DNA from: Agromyces terreus
GTDB lineage: Bacteria > Actinomycetota > Actinomycetes > Actinomycetales > Microbacteriaceae
Assembly: GCF_009749465.1 (NCBI RefSeq)
Contig: NZ_WBIS01000005.1
Span: 124,001 to 188,000, forward strand
Direction of reading: 5' to 3'
DNA length: 64,000 nt
The notes beneath the pieces were generated by a model, which saw only the letters and a program-made list of their open reading frames with translations, ran no database searches and had not been told where the DNA came from. Position 1 is the stretch's first letter, and each line of letters opens with the position of its first letter. This document shows, piece after piece, positions 51,178 through 58,719 of this stretch. The position numbers were made by a program, and so were the translations under genes.

Positions 51178-51191
51178 GCTTCTTCCTCCTT

Positions 51192-51278
51192 TTTCAGGAG
51201 GGGGTGTGGGCACGGGCGGCGATCTCGGCGCATTCCACGCCGCGGTGCCCCCGCGCGCCCACACCCTCTCCTGAAAAG
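51192..51278. repeat. Palindromic element, copy 1
   Basis: A left arm of 21 bases (51192-51212, starting TTTTCAGGAGGGGGTGTG) pairs with 51258-51278 with one G-T wobble; the 45-base centre is unrelated to the other copies. It lies just after the accA stop, between accA and the convergent DUF559-type gene. Copies 2 and 3 are at 52345 and 58625. Confidence 0.9.
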
Positions 51279-51321
51279 TGAAAGCACCCGTTCAGTTCGA
51301 GCGCGCGCGACAGGTCGATCG

Positions 51322-52239
51322 TCAGGCGCGTAGCGCACGAACGCCGGCGATGGCGTCGCGAAGCATCGCGGACGCACGATCCGGATGCCGCAGCAGCACC
51401 CGCGCCGGGATCCTCAGCGTCGGCAGCCCGAGCCTCAATGCCGCCGCATCGCGCTGCCGGTCGAACTCGAACTGTCGGCGCGTCCGGTGGAAGCGATAGC
51501 CGTCGATCTCGACCACGAGACATCCGTCGACCAAAAAGTCCACCCGGCCCACGCCCTCGAGGTCGACCTGTTGTTCGAAGGCCAGTCCCTGCTCGATGAG
51601 CTCTTCGACGAGGTGCGACTCCGCACCCGAACCGGATCGCGCGCTCAGATGCATCGGCTCGGCTTCGGGGTCGGAGGCCCGGTCGACCAGCAGCTGCGCC
51701 TCGTCGAGCGTGAGCGACCCGGCGTGCACCGCCGATTCGAATGCCGCCCGGATATCTCGACGGTCGGCGCAGCCCGCCATCTCGGCGAGCGCGGTCCGGA
51801 CGTCGACTCGCCACGCGGATTCGTCGTCGCGTCGGTGGCCGAATCGCCCGTCGCACCAGTGCAGGCGGACGGGGACTCCGAAGCGATCGGGCATGACGAC
51901 CTCGTCGGCCCCTGGCCGGTCCGTCACGGACAGCGGCGACCGGGTGCGCAGGCGAGCGGCGTTGTGCGGCAGGCTGACGTGCACGCACCCACCGGAGAGC
52001 CCTGACCACAGTCCCATCGCGGCGAGCGCGCTGCGACACCCGAGACGCCCGCCCACGCGCACGGCGGCGCGCCGGTCGAGATCGACGTCGTGGGTGGCGT
52101 AGTGGGCGCGGCGAACCCGCCCGATCTCGCCGAGCTTCACGGCGACCGAAAGCTGCATGCCGGTGATTCCGCGGTCGATGAGCTGACGCCGCGTCGCGAT
52201 GCCGCCGTGTTCGGCGAGCACGTCGATGATCGATTCCAC
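51322..52239 (-). CDS. AbiEi-like N-terminal plus DUF559/Vsr-like nuclease-fold protein
   Basis: The 305-residue product begins VESIIDVLAEHGGIATRRQLIDRGITGMQLSVAV, a small winged-helix like the N-terminal part of AbiEi antitoxins. It ends with LVEELIEQGLAFEQQVDLEGVGRVDFLVDGCLVVEIDGYRFHRTRRQFEFDRQRDAAALRLGLPTLRI, a DUF559/Vsr-type endonuclease-fold pattern with the acidic VDFLVD and VEIDG residues. Such proteins are common in Microbacteriaceae, often as many copies per genome, and their function is unsettled. The start is uncertain: I prefer the GTG at 52239, but a GTG at 52350 would extend the protein by 37 residues and would lie inside the arm of palindromic element 2. The gene is framed by two copies of that element. 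Confidence 0.75.
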   Translation of the reverse strand: MESIIDVLAEHGGIATRRQLIDRGITGMQLSVAVKLGEIGRVRRAHYATHDVDLDRRAAVRVGGRLGCRSALAAMGLWSGLSGGCVHVSLPHNAARLRTRSPLSVTDRPGADEVVMPDRFGVPVRLHWCDGRFGHRRDDESAWRVDVRTALAEMAGCADRRDIRAAFESAVHAGSLTLDEAQLLVDRASDPEAEPMHLSARSGSGAESHLVEELIEQGLAFEQQVDLEGVGRVDFLVDGCLVVEIDGYRFHRTRRQFEFDRQRDAAALRLGLPTLRIPARVLLRHPDRASAMLRDAIAGVRALRA

Positions 52240-52344
52240 ATGACGAGCCTGCGGGGCCAGCGGCACCGAAGTCGGCCCTCTCGCAAGATCGAGGTCGGCG
52301 CCGCGGCATCCGCCCTTGTCGAGGAGGAGTCGCGTCTCCGTTCG

Positions 52345-52443
52345 TTTCACTTTTCAGGAGGGGGTGTGGGGAGGCGAGGCCATCGACCCGCGTCGGGCCG
52401 CGGGAGCACCCCGCGCGCCCACACCCCCTCCTGAAAAGTGAAA
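52345..52443. repeat. Palindromic element, copy 2
   Basis: Two 26-base arms (52345-52370, beginning TTTCACTTTTCAGGAGG, and 52418-52443) are perfect reverse complements around a 47-base GC-rich centre. It lies between the DUF559-type gene and lpdA, both on the minus strand. A possible GTG start of the DUF559-type gene falls at 52348-52350 in the left arm. Confidence 0.92.
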
Positions 52444-52476
52444 TGCAGAACGGAAGCGACGCCGACGCCGACGCGA

Positions 52477-53907
52477 TCAGCGCACGACGTGCATCGCGCG
52501 CGCCGCGTCGGTCAGCGAACCGCTGAGCGACGGGTACACGGGGAACGCCTCGGCGAACTGGTCGACCGTGAGCCGGTGCTCGACGGCGAGCGCGAGCGGG
52601 AAGATGAGCTCGGATGCCTTGGGCGCGACGATGACCCCGCCGATGATGGCGCCCGACCCGCTCGATGCGAAGAGCTTCACGAAGCCGTCGCGGATGCCCA
52701 TCATCTTCGCGCGCGGGTTCGAGGCGAGCGGCAGCTTGTAGACGACGCCGGGCACCACGCCCTCCTCGATCTCGCGCTGCGTCCAGCCGACGGCGGCGAT
52801 CTCGGGCTGCGTGAAGATGTTCGAGGTGATGTTGCGCAGCTCGGGCGGGTTCACGATGTCGCCCATGGCGTGGAACACGGCGGTGCGGCCCTGCATCGAG
52901 GCGACCGAGGCGAGCGGGGGGAAGGTCGTGCAGTCGCCGGCCGCGTAGATGTTCGGCATCGACGTGCGGGCGACCCGGTTGACGCGGATGTGGCCCGAGT
53001 CCGAGAGCTGGACGCCGGCCTGCTCGAGCCCGAGGTCGCCCGTGTTCGGCACGGAGCCGACGGCCATGAGGCAGTGCGAGCCGCGCACCTCGCGCCCGTC
53101 GGAGAGCGTCGCGACGACCTCGTCGCCGTCGCGCACGACCGACTCGGCGCGCGACTTGTTCAGGACCTTCATGCCGTGGCGCTTGAAGACCTTCTCGATG
53201 ACGGATGCCGCGTCGGCGTCTTCGCCCGGAAGCACCTGGTCACGGCTCGAGATGAGCGTCACCTTCGCGCCGAGGGCACGGTAGGCGGAGGCGAACTCGG
53301 CACCGGTGACGCCGGATCCGACGACGATGAGGTGCTCGGGCACCTGCTGCAGGTGGTAGAGCTGGGTCCACGTCAGGATGCGCTCCCCGTCGGGGACGGC
53401 GGTGCCGAGCACGCGGGGCGTCGCGCCGACCGAGACGACGAGCGTGTCGGCCTCGATGCGGTCGAAGTCGGTGCCGCCCTTCGCGGTCGCGACGATGACC
53501 GCGTTGGGTCCGTCGAGGCGGCCCTCGCCGTGCACGAGGTGCACGCCGGCGTCGATGAGGTTCGAGCGCATGTCGTCGGACTGCTGCGCCGCGAGGCCGA
53601 GCAGCCGCTTGTTGACCGCGGCGAGGTTGATGGCCACGTTCGGCTTGACGGCCTTCTCGGCGTCGCCCTTGGCGTAGAACTGGACGCCGAGGTCGGCGGC
53701 CTCCTTGACCGCGTTCGACGCCTCGGCGGTGGCGATGAGCGACTTCGACGGCACCACGTCGGTGAGCACGGCCGAGCCGCCGACGCCGGCGCGTTCGATG
53801 AGGGTGACCTCGGCGCCGAGCTGGGCTCCGGCGAGCGCGGCCTCGTAGCCTCCGGGCCCGCCTCCGAGGACGGCGATGCGTTGGGTGCGCTCGAACTCGT
53901 AGGCCAT
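52477..53907 (-). CDS. lpdA: LpdA-like NAD(P)H-quinone reductase / flavoprotein disulfide reductase
   Basis: The 476-residue product is a class I flavin disulfide reductase fold: IAVLGGGPGGYEAALAGAQLGAEVTLIE (FAD), LIVVGSGVTGAEFASAYRALGAKVTLIS (NAD), IYAAGDCTTFPPLASVASMQGRTAVFHAMG and a dimerisation domain. The redox CxxxxC of dihydrolipoamide dehydrogenase is missing: the matching region reads GVGGSAVLTDVVPSKSL with no cysteine. That fits the LpdA (Rv3303c) type, which acts on quinones, and rules out a normal E3 role. I prefer the ATG at 53907, six bases after a CAGAAT box, so probably leaderless; the ATG at 53913 is the alternative. It is divergent from punA. Confidence 0.88.
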   Translation of the reverse strand: MAYEFERTQRIAVLGGGPGGYEAALAGAQLGAEVTLIERAGVGGSAVLTDVVPSKSLIATAEASNAVKEAADLGVQFYAKGDAEKAVKPNVAINLAAVNKRLLGLAAQQSDDMRSNLIDAGVHLVHGEGRLDGPNAVIVATAKGGTDFDRIEADTLVVSVGATPRVLGTAVPDGERILTWTQLYHLQQVPEHLIVVGSGVTGAEFASAYRALGAKVTLISSRDQVLPGEDADAASVIEKVFKRHGMKVLNKSRAESVVRDGDEVVATLSDGREVRGSHCLMAVGSVPNTGDLGLEQAGVQLSDSGHIRVNRVARTSMPNIYAAGDCTTFPPLASVASMQGRTAVFHAMGDIVNPPELRNITSNIFTQPEIAAVGWTQREIEEGVVPGVVYKLPLASNPRAKMMGIRDGFVKLFASSGSGAIIGGVIVAPKASELIFPLALAVEHRLTVDQFAEAFPVYPSLSGSLTDAARAMHVVR

Positions 53908-53992
53908 GCTCATATTCTGCCAGTACGGGTGCGCGCACCCTCACACGAGCACGATCCCGCCGCGGCATCCGCTCGCTCATTAGAGTGGTGGG
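53908..53992. promoter_or_regulatory. Divergent leaderless promoters of lpdA and punA
   Basis: Minus strand: CAGAAT (53914-53919) with the ATG at 53907. Plus strand: TAGAGT (53981-53986) with the ATG at 53993, six bases on. No ribosome site in either case. Confidence 0.5.
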
Positions 53993-54820
53993 ATGACGCA
54001 TGCAAACGTGCTCGGCGACCCCGCAGCAGACCCCTTCGCCGTCGCGGCCGACGCCGCGGCCCGCATCGCCGAGCTCACCGGCGTCGAACGTCACGACGTC
54101 GCGCTCACCCTCGGCAGCGGCTGGGGCCGGGCCGCCGAGCTCATCGGCGAGACGACGCACACGATCGCGGCCACCGAGGTGCCCGGCTTCTCCAAGCCCG
54201 CGCTCGAGGGCCACGTCGGCACGCTGCGTTCGGTGCTGCTGCCGAGCGGCAAGCACGCCCTCGTGATCGGCGCCCGAACGCACTACTACGAGGGGCACGG
54301 CGTGCGCCGGGTCGTGCATTCCGTCCGCACCGCCGCCGCGGCGGGTGCGACGACGATGATCCTCACGAACGGGGCCGGCGGCATCAAGGACCACTGGAAG
54401 CCCGGCACCCCGGTGCTCATCAGCGACCACATCAACCTCACGGCGGACTCGCCGCTCGAGGGCGCCACCTTCATCGACCTGACCGACCTGTACTCGACGC
54501 GGCTGCGCGAGCTCGCGCGCACCGTCGACCCCGGCCTCGACGAGGGCGTCTACTGCCAGTTCCGCGGCCCGCACTACGAGACGCCCGCCGAGGTGCAGAT
54601 GGCGAAGACGATCGGCGGCCACATCGTCGGCATGTCGACCGCGCTCGAGGCCATCGCCGCCCGCCAGGCCGGCATGGAGGTACTCGGCATGAGCCTCATC
54701 ACCAATCTCGCCGCCGGCATCCAGCAGACGCCGCTCAGCCACGAAGAGGTCATCGAGGCCGGGCGCCTGGCCGAACCGGTGATCTCGTCGCTGCTGGCGA
54801 AGATCGTCGCAGAGCTCTAG
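53993..54820 (+). CDS. punA: Purine nucleoside phosphorylase
   Basis: The 275-residue product is a trimeric-type purine nucleoside phosphorylase that splits inosine and guanosine with phosphate. Marks are VALTLGSGWGRAAELIG (phosphate loop), TEVPGFSKPALEGHVGTLRSVLL, GARTHYYEGHGVRRVVHSVRTAAAAGATTMILTNGAGGI, VYCQFRGPHYETPAEVQMAKTIGGHIVGMSTALEAIAARQAGMEVLGMSLITNLAAG. It works with add, deoA and cdd on the same side of the window in nucleoside salvage. The next gene, pmmB, begins ten bases after its stop with a GGAG site. Confidence 0.94.
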   Translation: MTHANVLGDPAADPFAVAADAAARIAELTGVERHDVALTLGSGWGRAAELIGETTHTIAATEVPGFSKPALEGHVGTLRSVLLPSGKHALVIGARTHYYEGHGVRRVVHSVRTAAAAGATTMILTNGAGGIKDHWKPGTPVLISDHINLTADSPLEGATFIDLTDLYSTRLRELARTVDPGLDEGVYCQFRGPHYETPAEVQMAKTIGGHIVGMSTALEAIAARQAGMEVLGMSLITNLAAGIQQTPLSHEEVIEAGRLAEPVISSLLAKIVAEL

Positions 54821-54830
54821 GAGATCCCGG

Positions 54831-56552
54831 ATGCCGCAGCCAGACGCCCTGAGCACGTCCGACGCCGATCGCGACCGCATCGCGCAGGCCGACGCGTGGA
54901 TCGCGCAGGACCCCGACCCCGAGACGCGCGCCGAACTCGAGCAGCTCATCGCGAGGGTGCAGGCGGGCGACGCCGCGGCATCCGCGGATCTCGCCGACCG
55001 GTTCGACCAGCGGCTCGCGTTCGGCACGGCGGGGCTGCGCGGCGAGATCGCCGCCGGGCCGAACCGCATGAACCGGGTGCTCGTGTCGCAGGCCGCCGCA
55101 GGGCTCGCCGCCTACCTGCTCGAACGCGCGACCGACGAGACCCCGTCGGCCGTCATCGGCTACGACGGCCGGCGCAACTCCGCGGTGTTCGCGAGGGACA
55201 CCGCCGAGATCCTCGCGGGCGCGGGCGTGCGCGCCGTCCTGCTGCCGCGGCTCCTGCCGACCCCGGTGCTCGCGTTCGCGGTGCGGCATCTCGGCATGTC
55301 CGCGGGCGTCATGGTCACCGCCTCGCACAACCCGCCGAACGACAACGGCTACAAGGTCTACCTCGGCGGCCGTGACCACGGCTCGCAGATCGTGTCGCCC
55401 GCCGACGCCGAGATCGCGGCGCACATCGCCGGCGTCGCCGCCACGACGCCCGTGCTCGACCTGCCGCGCGGTGCCTACGAGACCGCCGACGACTCGGTCG
55501 TCGACACCTACGTGCAGCGCACCGCGCTCGAGGCCGGGCATGCTCCGGCCGCGCAGCCCAAGGTCGTCTACACCGCCATGCACGGTGTCGGCTGGGAGAC
55601 CGCCGCGCGCGTGCTCGCCGACGCCGGGTTCGACGCCCCCACCCTCGTCGACGCGCAGATCGCGCCCGACGCCGCGTTCCCGACCGTCGCGTTCCCGAAC
55701 CCCGAGGAGCCCGGCGCGATGGATCTCTCGTTCGCCCGCGCCCGCGAGGTCGACGCCGACCTCATCGTCGCGAACGACCCCGACGCCGACCGGCTCGCGA
55801 TCGCGATCCCCGACCCGGGCGTCTCAGAGGGGTATCGGCGTCTCACCGGCAACGAGGTCGGCCTGCTGCTCGGCTGGCGTGCCGCACGTCAGGCCGCGGG
55901 CGCGTCGGGCGATTCGGGCCCCGCGGGCACGCTCGCGTGCTCGATCGTCTCCTCCCCCGGGCTGGCCGAGATCGCCGACGCCTACGACCTCGACTTCGAG
56001 GCGACCCTGACCGGCTTCAAGTGGATCTCGCGGGCGCCGAACCTCGTGTTCGGCTTCGAGGAGGCCCTCGGCTACCTCGTGAACCCCGGCACGGTACGTG
56101 ACAAGGACGGCATCTCGGCCGCCGTCGCGTTCCTCTCCCTCACCGCGGAACTGCGCGCGAACGGCCGCACCGTCGCCGACCACCTCGACGAGTTCGTCGA
56201 GCGATTCGGATGCCACCTCTCGGGCCAGATCTCGATCCGCGTCACCGATCTCAGCCGCATCGGCGCCGTCATGGCCCGTCTGCGCGCCGAGCCGCCCGCA
56301 TCGGTCGGCGGCGTCCGCGTCGAGCGCATCGAGGACCTCTCGCACGGGTTCGGGTCCCTCGCGCCGAGCGACGTCCTGCGCTTCGTCATGCAGGGTGGCG
56401 CGCGCATCATGGTGCGCCCCAGCGGAACCGAGCCGAAGCTCAAGGTCTACCTCGACGCCGCCGCGCACGACGGCACGGTCGCGGAGCGCCGCGCTGCGGC
56501 ATCCGCGACGCTCGAGGCGCTCGAGGGCGGCATGCGCGAACTCATCGCGTGA
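54831..56552 (+). CDS. pmmB: Phosphomannomutase/phosphoglucomutase (PmmB type)
   Basis: The 573-residue product is an alpha-D-phosphohexomutase with all four domain marks: FGTAGLRGEIAAGPNRMNRVLV, the phosphoserine loop GVMVTASHNPPNDNGYKVYLGG, the metal loop IVANDPDADRLAIAIPD, the sugar loop FGFEEALGYLV and the phosphate loop MVRPSGTEPKLKVYL. It is in the long class (about 550-580) close to PgmB/PmmB and could act on ribose-1-phosphate produced by PunA as well as on hexoses. It is co-oriented with punA (gap ten bases), as in M. tuberculosis (deoD-pmmB, from memory). Confidence 0.93.
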   Translation: MPQPDALSTSDADRDRIAQADAWIAQDPDPETRAELEQLIARVQAGDAAASADLADRFDQRLAFGTAGLRGEIAAGPNRMNRVLVSQAAAGLAAYLLERATDETPSAVIGYDGRRNSAVFARDTAEILAGAGVRAVLLPRLLPTPVLAFAVRHLGMSAGVMVTASHNPPNDNGYKVYLGGRDHGSQIVSPADAEIAAHIAGVAATTPVLDLPRGAYETADDSVVDTYVQRTALEAGHAPAAQPKVVYTAMHGVGWETAARVLADAGFDAPTLVDAQIAPDAAFPTVAFPNPEEPGAMDLSFARAREVDADLIVANDPDADRLAIAIPDPGVSEGYRRLTGNEVGLLLGWRAARQAAGASGDSGPAGTLACSIVSSPGLAEIADAYDLDFEATLTGFKWISRAPNLVFGFEEALGYLVNPGTVRDKDGISAAVAFLSLTAELRANGRTVADHLDEFVERFGCHLSGQISIRVTDLSRIGAVMARLRAEPPASVGGVRVERIEDLSHGFGSLAPSDVLRFVMQGGARIMVRPSGTEPKLKVYLDAAAHDGTVAERRAAASATLEALEGGMRELIA

Positions 56553-56565
56553 GCGCCGCCCGGCC

Positions 56566-56850
56566 TCAGCCCAGCGAGGCCTCGAGCTTGCCGCCGATCT
56601 CATCGACGTCGAAGTAGTTCACGACCTCGATGATCTCGGCGTGGTTGCGCCCGAGCGCGGCCCGCACGGCGCCCGCGAGCTCCGTCGAGGTGAGCACCAC
56701 CTGGGCGTCGGATGCCGCGACCGCGACGGATTCGAGATCGCTCGCGTCGACCACGGCCGACAGCCCGAGGCGACCGAGCGCGCGCTCGGCGTTCAGCTTG
56801 AGGATGGCGGAGGTGCCGATGCCCGACCCGCAGACGGCGATGATCCTCAT
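56566..56850 (-). CDS. PTS EIIB component (ascorbate/galactitol-like)
   Basis: The 94-residue product is a small PTS phosphocarrier with the active cysteine C7 in IIAVCGSGIGTSAILKLNAERAL, followed by VDASDLESVAVAASDAQVVLTSTELA. This matches the SgaB/UlaB or lactose/galactitol-type IIB fold. The ATG at 56850 overlaps the stop of the EIIA gene as ATGA. Its own end is 13 bases from the pmmB stop (convergent). No EIIC membrane gene is adjacent, so either a distant EIIC is served or the pair has a regulatory role. Confidence 0.85.
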   Translation of the reverse strand: MRIIAVCGSGIGTSAILKLNAERALGRLGLSAVVDASDLESVAVAASDAQVVLTSTELAGAVRAALGRNHAEIIEVVNYFDVDEIGGKLEASLG

Positions 56851-57317
56851 GATCGGTGCTCCGATTCGTCGGAGCGGCCCATGCCGAGCAGCTGCCGCAC
56901 CTCGTCGGCAGAGGCCGCGCCGGCGATGCGGGCGATGACCTGCTCGTCGTTGAAGACGTTCGCGAGCCGGGCGACCGAGGCGACGTGCTCCTCGGCGTTC
57001 GCGACGGCGAGGCCGATGACCACGCTCACGGGATCGTTGTGGGGGTGGCCGAACTCGACCGGTGCGGCGAGCGTCACGACCGAGAGCCCCTCTCGGAGCA
57101 CGTCGGGCCCCGGGCGGGCGTGGGCCAGCGCGAGCCCCGGCGCGACGACCACGTAGGCGCCGAACTCCTCGATGACGGCGATCATGCGGTCGGTGTACTC
57201 GGCCCGCGTGGAGCCGGAGCGGGCGAGCGCACGACCCGCCTCGCGGACCGCCTGGCGCCAGTCGTCGACGTGCGCGCCGAGGTGCACGGCGACGTCGGGA
57301 AGCGACGGTGTGGTCAT
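56847..57317 (-). CDS. PTS EIIA component (mannitol/fructose/ascorbate type)
   Basis: The 156-residue product is a PTS_EIIA type-2 protein with the phospho-accepting H66 in VVVAPGLALAHARPGPDV and a conserved VEFGHPHNDPVSVVIGLAV segment. It receives phosphate from HPr and passes it to an EIIB. The ATG at 57317 is followed directly by EIIB in the same operon. Upstream, the 97-base gap to the add stop has no gene. The unit sits between pmmB and add, a place where M. tuberculosis has no PTS gene as far as I recall. Confidence 0.87.
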   Translation of the reverse strand: MTTPSLPDVAVHLGAHVDDWRQAVREAGRALARSGSTRAEYTDRMIAVIEEFGAYVVVAPGLALAHARPGPDVLREGLSVVTLAAPVEFGHPHNDPVSVVIGLAVANAEEHVASVARLANVFNDEQVIARIAGAASADEVRQLLGMGRSDESEHRS

Positions 57318-57414
57318 GGGTGGTTCCGTTTCAGCGCTCGGGGCGCAGGGTGTGGGGCGTCGCGGTGGTCGTCGAGCGCGGTCGGAGCGGAGACGCCCGG
57401 CCCGCGGCATCCGA

Positions 57415-58536
57415 TCAGGCCTCGTCGAAGCCCTCTCCGATGAGTTCGGCGAGCTCGTCGCGGTCGTCGAGCGGGAGGAAGGTGGCCGCGACCGCGTTCA
57501 GCTGGAAGGTCTCGATGTCGTCGAGGTCGTAGCCGAAGGCGTCGCTCAGCAGCGCGAGTTCGCGCGAGATGCTCGTGGAGCTCTGAAGACGGTTGTCGGG
57601 GTTGACCGTGACCCGGAAGCCGAGCTGGTAGAGCAGGTCGAACGGGTGGTCGACGAGCTCGTCGCCCCATGCCTGGATCGCACCCGTCTGCAGGTTCGAC
57701 GACGGGCTGAGCTCGAGGGCGATCTCGCGGTCGCGCACCCACTGCGCGATCGGGCCCAGCGAGACGTAGGTGTTCTCGTCGTCCTGGCGCTCGATGACGA
57801 GGTCTTCGGCCAGGCGCACGCCGTGGCCGAGGCGCAGGGCACGGCCGTCGAAGAGGGCGCTGCGGATCGACTCGAGCCCGTCGGCCTCGCCGGCGTGCAC
57901 GGTGACGGGCAGGTACTGGCCCGCGAGGTAGTCGAAGGCGGTGCGGTGCCGGCTCGCCGGGAACCCGGCCTCGGCGCCCGCGATGTCGAACCCGACGACG
58001 CCGCGGTCTCGGTGGCGCACCGCGAGCTCGGCGATCTCGAGCCCGCGATCGGCGTGCCGCATGGCCGTGATGAGCTGCCCGGTGCGAATGCCGTGGCCGG
58101 CGTCGCGGGCGTCGTCGACGCCCTGGTCGAGCCCCTCCTGCACGGCGGCCACGACCTCGTCGAGGTCGAGCCCCCCGCCCAGGTGCTGCTCGGGCGCCCA
58201 GCGGATCTCGCCGTAGATCACCCCGTCTGCGGCGAGGTCCTGGACGAACTCGCGGGCGACCCTGGTGAGGCCCTCGCGGGTCTGCATGACCGCGGTGGTG
58301 AGGTCGAAGGTCTTCAGGTAGTCGACGAGCGAACCGGAGTCGGCCTTCTCGGCGAACCAGGTGCCGAGCTCGTCGGCGTCCTGCGTGGGCACGTCGACGC
58401 CGGTGGCGTCGGCGAGCTCGATGATGGTCTGCGGACGCAGCCCTCCGTCGAGGTGGTCGTGCAGCGAGATCTTCGGGAGCGCCTGGATGTTCGCGCCATC
58501 GCCCTCGAGCCGGTACTGCGTCGCATTCGTGTTCAC
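57415..58536 (-). CDS. add: Adenosine deaminase
   Basis: The 373-residue product carries the zinc-binding HDHLDG (H26, H28), VTVHAGEADGLESI with the third His and catalytic Glu region, LGHGVRLAED, and VTVNPDNRLQSSTSISRE in place of the usual NTDDP motif; the zinc Asp is kept while the following Asp is Asn, which is common in actinobacterial forms. It turns adenosine to inosine for PunA. The GTG at 58536 is six bases after a TATCGT box (58543-58548), so it is probably leaderless and separately transcribed from deoA. Confidence 0.93.
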   Translation of the reverse strand: MNTNATQYRLEGDGANIQALPKISLHDHLDGGLRPQTIIELADATGVDVPTQDADELGTWFAEKADSGSLVDYLKTFDLTTAVMQTREGLTRVAREFVQDLAADGVIYGEIRWAPEQHLGGGLDLDEVVAAVQEGLDQGVDDARDAGHGIRTGQLITAMRHADRGLEIAELAVRHRDRGVVGFDIAGAEAGFPASRHRTAFDYLAGQYLPVTVHAGEADGLESIRSALFDGRALRLGHGVRLAEDLVIERQDDENTYVSLGPIAQWVRDREIALELSPSSNLQTGAIQAWGDELVDHPFDLLYQLGFRVTVNPDNRLQSSTSISRELALLSDAFGYDLDDIETFQLNAVAATFLPLDDRDELAELIGEGFDEA

Positions 58537-58542
58537 GGCTCA

Positions 58543-58548
58543 ACGATA
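58543..58548 (-). promoter_or_regulatory. -10 box, leaderless promoter of add
   Basis: TATCGT on the minus strand with six bases to the GTG at 58536 and no ribosome site between them. Confidence 0.45.
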
Positions 58549-58624
58549 CCGGCGAGGCCGCCGTGAAGTCTCGGCAATCTCAGAGCAATACGTCCCGGAG
58601 CGGTGCCGTCTCCTCGCTCGTGAA

Positions 58625-58719
58625 TCACTTTTCAGGAACGGGTGTGGGCACGACGGGGTATCCGGAGCGGAACTCGACCGGGACAACGCTTGCCGCCCAC
58701 ACCCCTTCCTGAAAAGCGA
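58625..58719. repeat. Palindromic element, copy 3
   Basis: A 25-base left arm (58625-58649, beginning TCACTTTTCAGGAACGGG) pairs with 58695-58719 with two mismatches, around a 45-base centre unlike those of copies 1 and 2. It fills most of the gap between deoA and add, both on the minus strand, and would lie at the 3-prime end of the deoA message. Confidence 0.88.

Follow-up and report, generated by a model that had tools for sequence, protein, structure and literature searches.

The stretch of DNA analysed here (the window) covers 64,000 nucleotides of Agromyces terreus (assembly GCF_009749465.1, genome G000 below; contig NZ_WBIS01000005.1, positions 124,001 to 188,000) and carries three short elements built of inverted boxes, two of which enclose a putative nuclease gene between an accC-like and an lpd-like gene (Table 1). 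The third follows a pyrimidine-nucleoside phosphorylase gene and precedes an adenosine deaminase gene. The names accC, lpd and, in other genomes, glyS were read from sequence, and the Pfam run covered the nuclease and the two genes beside element 3.

Table 1. Coordinates of the elements and of the nuclease gene in the window.
Feature	Position	Strand	Description
Element 1	51190-51278 (first-pass annotation: 51192-51278), 89 bp	.	Inverted boxes, core TCAGGA/TCCTGA; directly past the accC-like gene
Element 2	52345-52443, 99 bp including the outer arms; 89-bp unit 52350-52438	.	Past the lpd-like gene, on the upstream side of the nuclease gene
Element 3	58625-58719, 95 bp including the outer arms; 89-bp unit 58628-58716	.	
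Nuclease gene	51322-52239	-	AbiEi-like winged helix and MTES_1575/DUF559-like (Vsr-type) nuclease; start at 52239 inferred, open frame to 52350

The first-pass annotation, made from the letters of the window, had described the three elements as palindromes with constant arms, and they were found again with exact 89-bp units and, in element 2, with 26 paired arm positions and no mismatch. Its remark that the first 50 kb hold no element also proved right, as all six arm matches in the window (up to 3 mismatches) fell within elements 1-3, while the shuffled window gave a mean of 0.01. The genome-wide arm search that it had proposed revealed 21 copies in the 3.71-Mb assembly (27 contigs), of which 17 were exactly 89 bp and 2 were 90 bp long. 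The remaining two were an 88-bp copy with an eroded inner arm (C22) and a 106-bp copy with a poly-G/poly-C centre (G000:C21:69810-69915), whose long runs of G and C probably arose as an artefact when a strong hairpin was sequenced or assembled. The length constraint suspected for the centre was real, but the constant quantity is the whole element and not the centre alone. Similarly, the centres had been called unrelated, and their identity is low, but they are not wholly unrelated: the centres of the 17 copies that are 89 bp long had a mean best pairwise identity (best orientation) of 0.46, compared with 0.35 for shuffled centres and 0.89 for the arms, and of the 391 symmetric position pairs in these centres, 180 were complementary, compared with 124 (sd 8.8) after shuffling. 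Unpaired single boxes were very few and almost absent in G000. A distinct class of 105-106 bp was also observed (G000:C21:15197-15302, with similar stretches in G001, G004, G015, and G036), in which the outer ends are as in the elements, the centre is seemingly common to species, and an AGGAG-ATG start stands at one end; it was left out of the element counts where noticed.

The protein encoded between elements 1 and 2 combines an AbiEi-like winged helix with a nuclease-like C-terminal part. A search for a linked single-strand transposase (TnpA/RAYT) had been recommended, and a linked enzyme gene was worth seeking, but it is not of this class: Pfam Y1_Tnp had no match in G000 and was present in 5 of 14 control genomes. 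The window protein matched MTES_1575 (E 2.9e-7) and AbiEi_4 (E 0.0012), both under the curated cut-offs. Among its relatives, the proteins of G023 and G001 passed the AbiEi_4 and DUF559 cut-offs and that of G142 passed the MTES_1575 cut-off, while the G225 protein gave no Pfam match and was assigned by BLASTP clustering and alignment (31% identity). A profile of 14 relatives matched PDB 3hrl (E 5.9e-5) and weakly matched 3r3p, a mobile-intron protein (E 0.12). The residues E245, D272, E282, and D284 are conserved, and the protein of G007 lacks the stretch holding the last three. A structure model of the window protein made without an alignment had a mean pLDDT of 36.8 and was discarded. No AbiEii nucleotidyltransferase toxin adjoins the gene, the neighbouring frames being accC- and lpd-like. 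We know of no role for a DUF559/MTES_1575 nuclease of such a kind. In addition, on the minus strand, a small hairpin (window 51284-51304) lies 18 bp past the stop of the nuclease gene; the T-rich outer arm of element 1 comes next, and the hairpin is possibly a terminator that uses this arm.

The core boxes TCAGGA...TCCTGA were also found in other Agromyces species and in other genera of Microbacteriaceae. The core-only pattern at 79-81 bp matched in 27 of 60 genus genomes, many with one match, while the reversed pattern gave 0 or 1 match per genome. In the family sample, a match was found in 139 of 398 genomes and the reversed pattern never exceeded 2; at least 9 matches were present in 13 family genomes besides G000, from eight other genera. 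Sequences were read closely in two of the other genera, g38 (G225, G077, and G316) and g22 (G061), and the consensus TCGGAAATTCAGGA was obtained in G225, G077, and G061. The bases flanking the core vary by lineage, with CTTTTCAGGAG in G000, CACAACTCAGGAAC in G030 and G024, CAGAATTCAGGA in G007 and G019, and TTCTCAGGA in G147, G028, and most of G036; G023 has CTTTTCAGGAG, but with other flanks. A longer class of about 126 bp (core 119-121 bp) with the ends TTTTCAGGA...TCCTGAAAA occurs in G001, G006, G015, and G023. The elements are a real class that is present in several genera of one family.

Additional boxes were seen in some genomes. Elements of G007 contain extra TCAGGA boxes that give spans of 79, 112, and 145 bp, in steps of 33, and many elements of G036, G147, G142, and G004 contain a third box, which reads TTCTCAGGA or its complement and lies inside the element at about 30 bp from one of its ends. 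G032 has a single element with the window's own arm sequence, a decayed second arm, and no nuclease gene beside lpd.

A scan of GTDB contigs for the exact ends returned 17 stretches, one of them from Agromyces; between these ends, 16 of the stretches have 7-18 of 33-35 positions paired, and the remaining one is perfectly palindromic. Phages and plasmids searched for relatives of the elements gave weak partial matches only, and viral contigs gave no match for three element patterns and no relative of the nuclease. Rfam had no match at gathering score in the window, and a run on seven loci returned only a sub-threshold mir-3622. In a limited literature collection, no paper was recognised as describing such a repeat.

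The spacing of the boxes is near-constant, at 79-81 bp, and at 119-121 bp in one clade. In contiguous stretches of the two other genera, 35 of 42 elements measured 79-81 bp, and the other seven (68, 68, 69, 69, 69, 90, and 91 bp) were about one helical turn off; the 42 are those that passed the outer-base filter in a range of 64-102 bp, and none was seen at half turns. Independent length events number fewer than seven, as two of the 69-bp elements are tandem neighbours and one short element recurs at a site common to G077 and G225. The off-lengths found in Agromyces were two elements of 69 bp in G004 and one of 70 bp in G028. The near-constant length, together with seven of seven odd lengths lying about one turn away, supports a model of a paired reader: whole-turn shifts fit two proteins on one face of the DNA, so the centre may drift while the length may not. 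However, the step from 80 bp to the 119-121-bp class does not correspond to whole turns, which counts against the phase explanation.

Among 169 distinct elements with called neighbours, 68 were in convergent, 86 in co-directional, and 15 in divergent gaps, and the facing stop codon was a median of 35.5 bp from the element (154 elements); genes were called by a simple codon-score caller, and a few elements overlap called genes. Such places raise the question of whether the elements act in RNA, as bidirectional terminators or RNA-stability elements at 3-prime ends. The short distance past the stop and the common convergent gaps agree with this, as do the strong stems in predicted folds. Of 19 convergent cases in G030 and G024, 16 had the head of the element turned towards the nearer stop, while tandem cases were split 7 to 8. 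The T-rich outer arms of elements 1 and 2 form the ends of two terminator-like matches; however, the scan of the region gave 3 matches against 2.3 expected by chance, and the matches near the elements are other small hairpins and not the element stems. No T run follows the stems, as the first-pass annotation had noted. At one site of G023, a terminator-type hairpin lies separately beside the element, and G006, which lacks the element, has retained this hairpin.

The mismatches in the stems also speak against selection on RNA. On the gene-sense strand of 154 elements, isolated stem mismatches comprised 27 G.T/T.G and 28 A.C/C.A pairs. A selected RNA stem should favour G.U, and the lack of an excess of G.U over A.C, together with the absence of a Y1 transposase from G000 and of target-site duplications visible by eye, was read as pointing to DNA-level sites; the control for this test consisted of 6 hairpins only, too few to calibrate its power, and hairpins without a T tail showed 252 G.T and 187 A.C. 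The interiors of the 126-bp and G030 classes paired no more than column composition predicts, and those of G000 somewhat more; pairing at positions -1 and -2 was forced by the filter and is uninformative. The equal numbers of the two mismatches, as well as the scarcity of unpaired boxes, support a paired-box DNA site. The earlier suggestion of a hairpin kept for RNA processing or termination was not supported, within the uncalibrated power of the mismatch test, and we consider a function at the RNA level very unlikely.

A comparison of flanks showed that sites are partly common to species. The sites of elements 1 and 2 are occupied by elements of the longer class (119-121 bp) in G023, G001, and G015, elements of another dialect lie beside lpd in G030 and G024, and the two genes around element 3 also enclose elements in G028 and G030. 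In distant species, most sites are not common to both. If the boxes are binding sites, this would be a natural case in which the dialect of a site changes at many genomic places while the sites stay put. Of the elements of G023 that were compared, five single ones are missing from G006, as are both accC-lpd elements and the gene between them. In G006, the accC- and lpd-like genes are directly adjacent.

These gains and losses between species are among the features expected of non-autonomous mobile DNA, MITE- or REPIN-like and moved by some other transposase, in which case the nuclease gene would be a passenger or a neighbour and the places past stop codons would be harmless insertion spots. 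The same reading would account for dispersed copies with inverted ends, for the tandem doublets of elements in G077, G225, and G061, and for the few elements in divergent gaps (of the 107 gaps of at least 120 bp in four cluster regions, 30 were divergent, a background that applies to those regions and not to Agromyces). In contrast, the Y1 family, the one transposase family searched, is absent from G000, the G000 centres are unlike those of recent copies, and the ends are intact at sites common to deeply separated species. Inspection by eye of seven sites that lack their element in G006 showed no duplicated target bases, the flanks having diverged. In the four cluster regions, we noticed no full-length form in which single boxes enclose a gene. 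Mobility of this kind appears unlikely. The clustered elements of G225, G077, and G061 adjoin genes that look like housekeeping genes (names from sequence), and an integron-like array was rejected on this ground.

Across the loci analysed, the nuclease gene was found in 14 genomes, 12 of which have strict elements on both sides; of the other two, G316 has one element, upstream, and G147 has degenerate elements, judged by eye. In Agromyces, the neighbours of the unit are accC/lpd-like genes; in g38 and g22, the unit adjoins a glyS-like gene. Of the 13 cases in which the distance could be measured, 12 have the core of the upstream element 105-165 bp away from the inferred start, and in G142 it is 220 bp away. 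The downstream element overlaps the end of the nuclease frame in G225, G077, and G061. The lpd locus was examined in 53 of the 60 genus genomes (all but G021, G026, G037, G143, G144, G155, and G156); most other loci were chosen for holding elements, and lpd loci were not. The gene was present at lpd in 10 of the 53 (G000, G001, G007, G015, G023, G024, G030, G036, G142, and G147), each with at least 9 elements. Among the 43 without it, in the sense of absence at lpd, since the gene may sit elsewhere in the genome, 36 had 0-2 elements and seven had 5-9 (G004, G006, G012, G019, G028, G035, and G154). The co-occurrence was significant (Fisher 1e-6, uncorrected for relatedness). Both the flanking in 12 of 14 genomes and the co-occurrence at lpd support the nuclease as the reader of the elements.

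Several observations count against this role. No nuclease gene lies beside any of the elements that the core-only pattern gave for G004 (8), G028 (8), and G019 (6), or beside 4 of 5 in G012; this includes 20 additional stretches of these four genomes. G006 has kept 9 well-conserved elements despite the loss of the gene at accC-lpd, and in G007 the elements persist while the catalytic part of the nuclease is deleted. In some genomes, other genes are also flanked by elements on both sides. The elements might instead be bound by some host protein, chromosome-organising or otherwise, that is unrelated to the nuclease, which would suit their vertical persistence and helical phase, as well as the concentration of at least 14 of 17 matches of G225 within 0.27 Mb (G225:C1:1574068-1840192, 1.57-1.84 Mb) of a 3.64-Mb contig. 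However, the listed copies of the Agromyces genomes G023, G030, and G036 are spread along the chromosome, and the recurrent order element-gene-element would be left unexplained. In our judgement, a host protein of this type is quite unlikely.

Taken together, we favour, with reserve, the reading that the elements are REPIN-like paired-box DNA sites read by the AbiEi-like winged-helix and nuclease protein. We observed the sequences, spacing, and sites of the elements and their association with the gene that they enclose; what the protein would do at them is deduced from these. Each element would consist of two inverted recognition boxes with an invariant core TCAGGA, lineage-specific flanks, a near-constant helical phase, and a drifting centre, and the protein encoded between elements 1 and 2 would most likely be their reader. 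One molecule may bind each box, and two may pair across the bent spacer. Upstream of the nuclease gene, the element would then serve as an operator at which the protein represses its own gene, and the scattered elements might be further sites of the same protein that persist because it acts on them. There, the protein may cut, copy, or bridge the elements, or simply be titrated by them. Such binding is suggested by what is reported for AbiEi proteins, whose targets are inverted repeats and whose binding bends the DNA (PMC7319586). In Streptococcus agalactiae, AbiEi occupies two inverted repeats cooperatively, bends the DNA, and represses its own operon, and repeats with a 10-bp longer gap are bound by a mycobacterial relative (PMC7319586). 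The genome G007, with the catalytic part gone and the elements kept, would speak for binding over cutting, to judge from its sequence.

A bolder extension, which we regard as somewhat improbable, is that a winged-helix protein with a Vsr/homing-type nuclease, and not an HUH transposase, builds and maintains the REPIN-like elements. Encoded between two elements, it might nick or cut the boxes and spread or conserve them by homing-like repair, and the dialects would coevolve with the DNA-binding domain across Microbacteriaceae. A second, unrelated enzyme beside repeats of this type would separate the general features of paired-box repeats (inverted boxes, fixed phase, extragenic places, and long persistence) from those specific to RAYTs. 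It would also point to a role for such DUF559/MTES_1575 nucleases.

Several known systems resemble the elements in part. Intrinsic terminators differ in the T run that follows their GC stems. MITEs differ in interiors that are common to their copies or to a full-length transposon; here, the identity of the G000 centres is low (0.46) and no full-length element was noticed. The attC sites of integrons have conserved ends, an imperfect dyad, a place after a stop codon, and the core GTTRRRY. The elements share the conserved ends, the imperfect dyad, and the post-stop place, whereas their neighbours are housekeeping-like genes and not cassettes, and GTTRRRY is not found at their ends. Vsr/DUF559-type endonucleases match the C-terminal domain by profile, but the nuclease here is fused to a winged helix and flanked by paired-box elements. 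AbiEi of the AbiE type IV toxin-antitoxin system has a similar winged-helix N-terminus, and the element upstream of the gene resembles the inverted repeats described in the AbiEi promoter (PMC7319586). Unlike AbiEi, the protein here has a nuclease-like C-terminal part, its gene has accC-/lpd-like neighbours in place of the AbiEii toxin, and dispersed sites occur elsewhere in the genome.

The closest similarity is to REPIN/RAYT systems, in keeping with the first-pass suggestion of a mobile REP- or MITE-like family as far as the dispersed, REP-like anatomy is concerned, but not as to the linked gene. As in the published description of REPINs, short conserved boxes form inverted pairs that are extragenic and dispersed, with a less conserved spacer whose length is held more than its sequence (the commonest REPIN spacings are 71 and 110 bp), and ordered tandem clusters and an associated enzyme gene occur (PMC3116915). 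REPINs are tied there to one enzyme class (PMC3116915) and are described elsewhere with a GTAG/CGTC tag (PMC3733652). By comparison with these accounts, single boxes are almost absent here, copies number 21 and not hundreds, and no GTAG/CGTC tag was seen by eye beside the boxes of the 21 elements. The layout is REPIN-like, but two defining marks of REPIN/RAYT membership, the RAYT gene and the tag, were absent from G000. Where a Y1 transposase would be expected, the partner is a winged-helix protein with a Vsr-like nuclease. This partner gene is the surprising part of what may be a cousin of REPINs.
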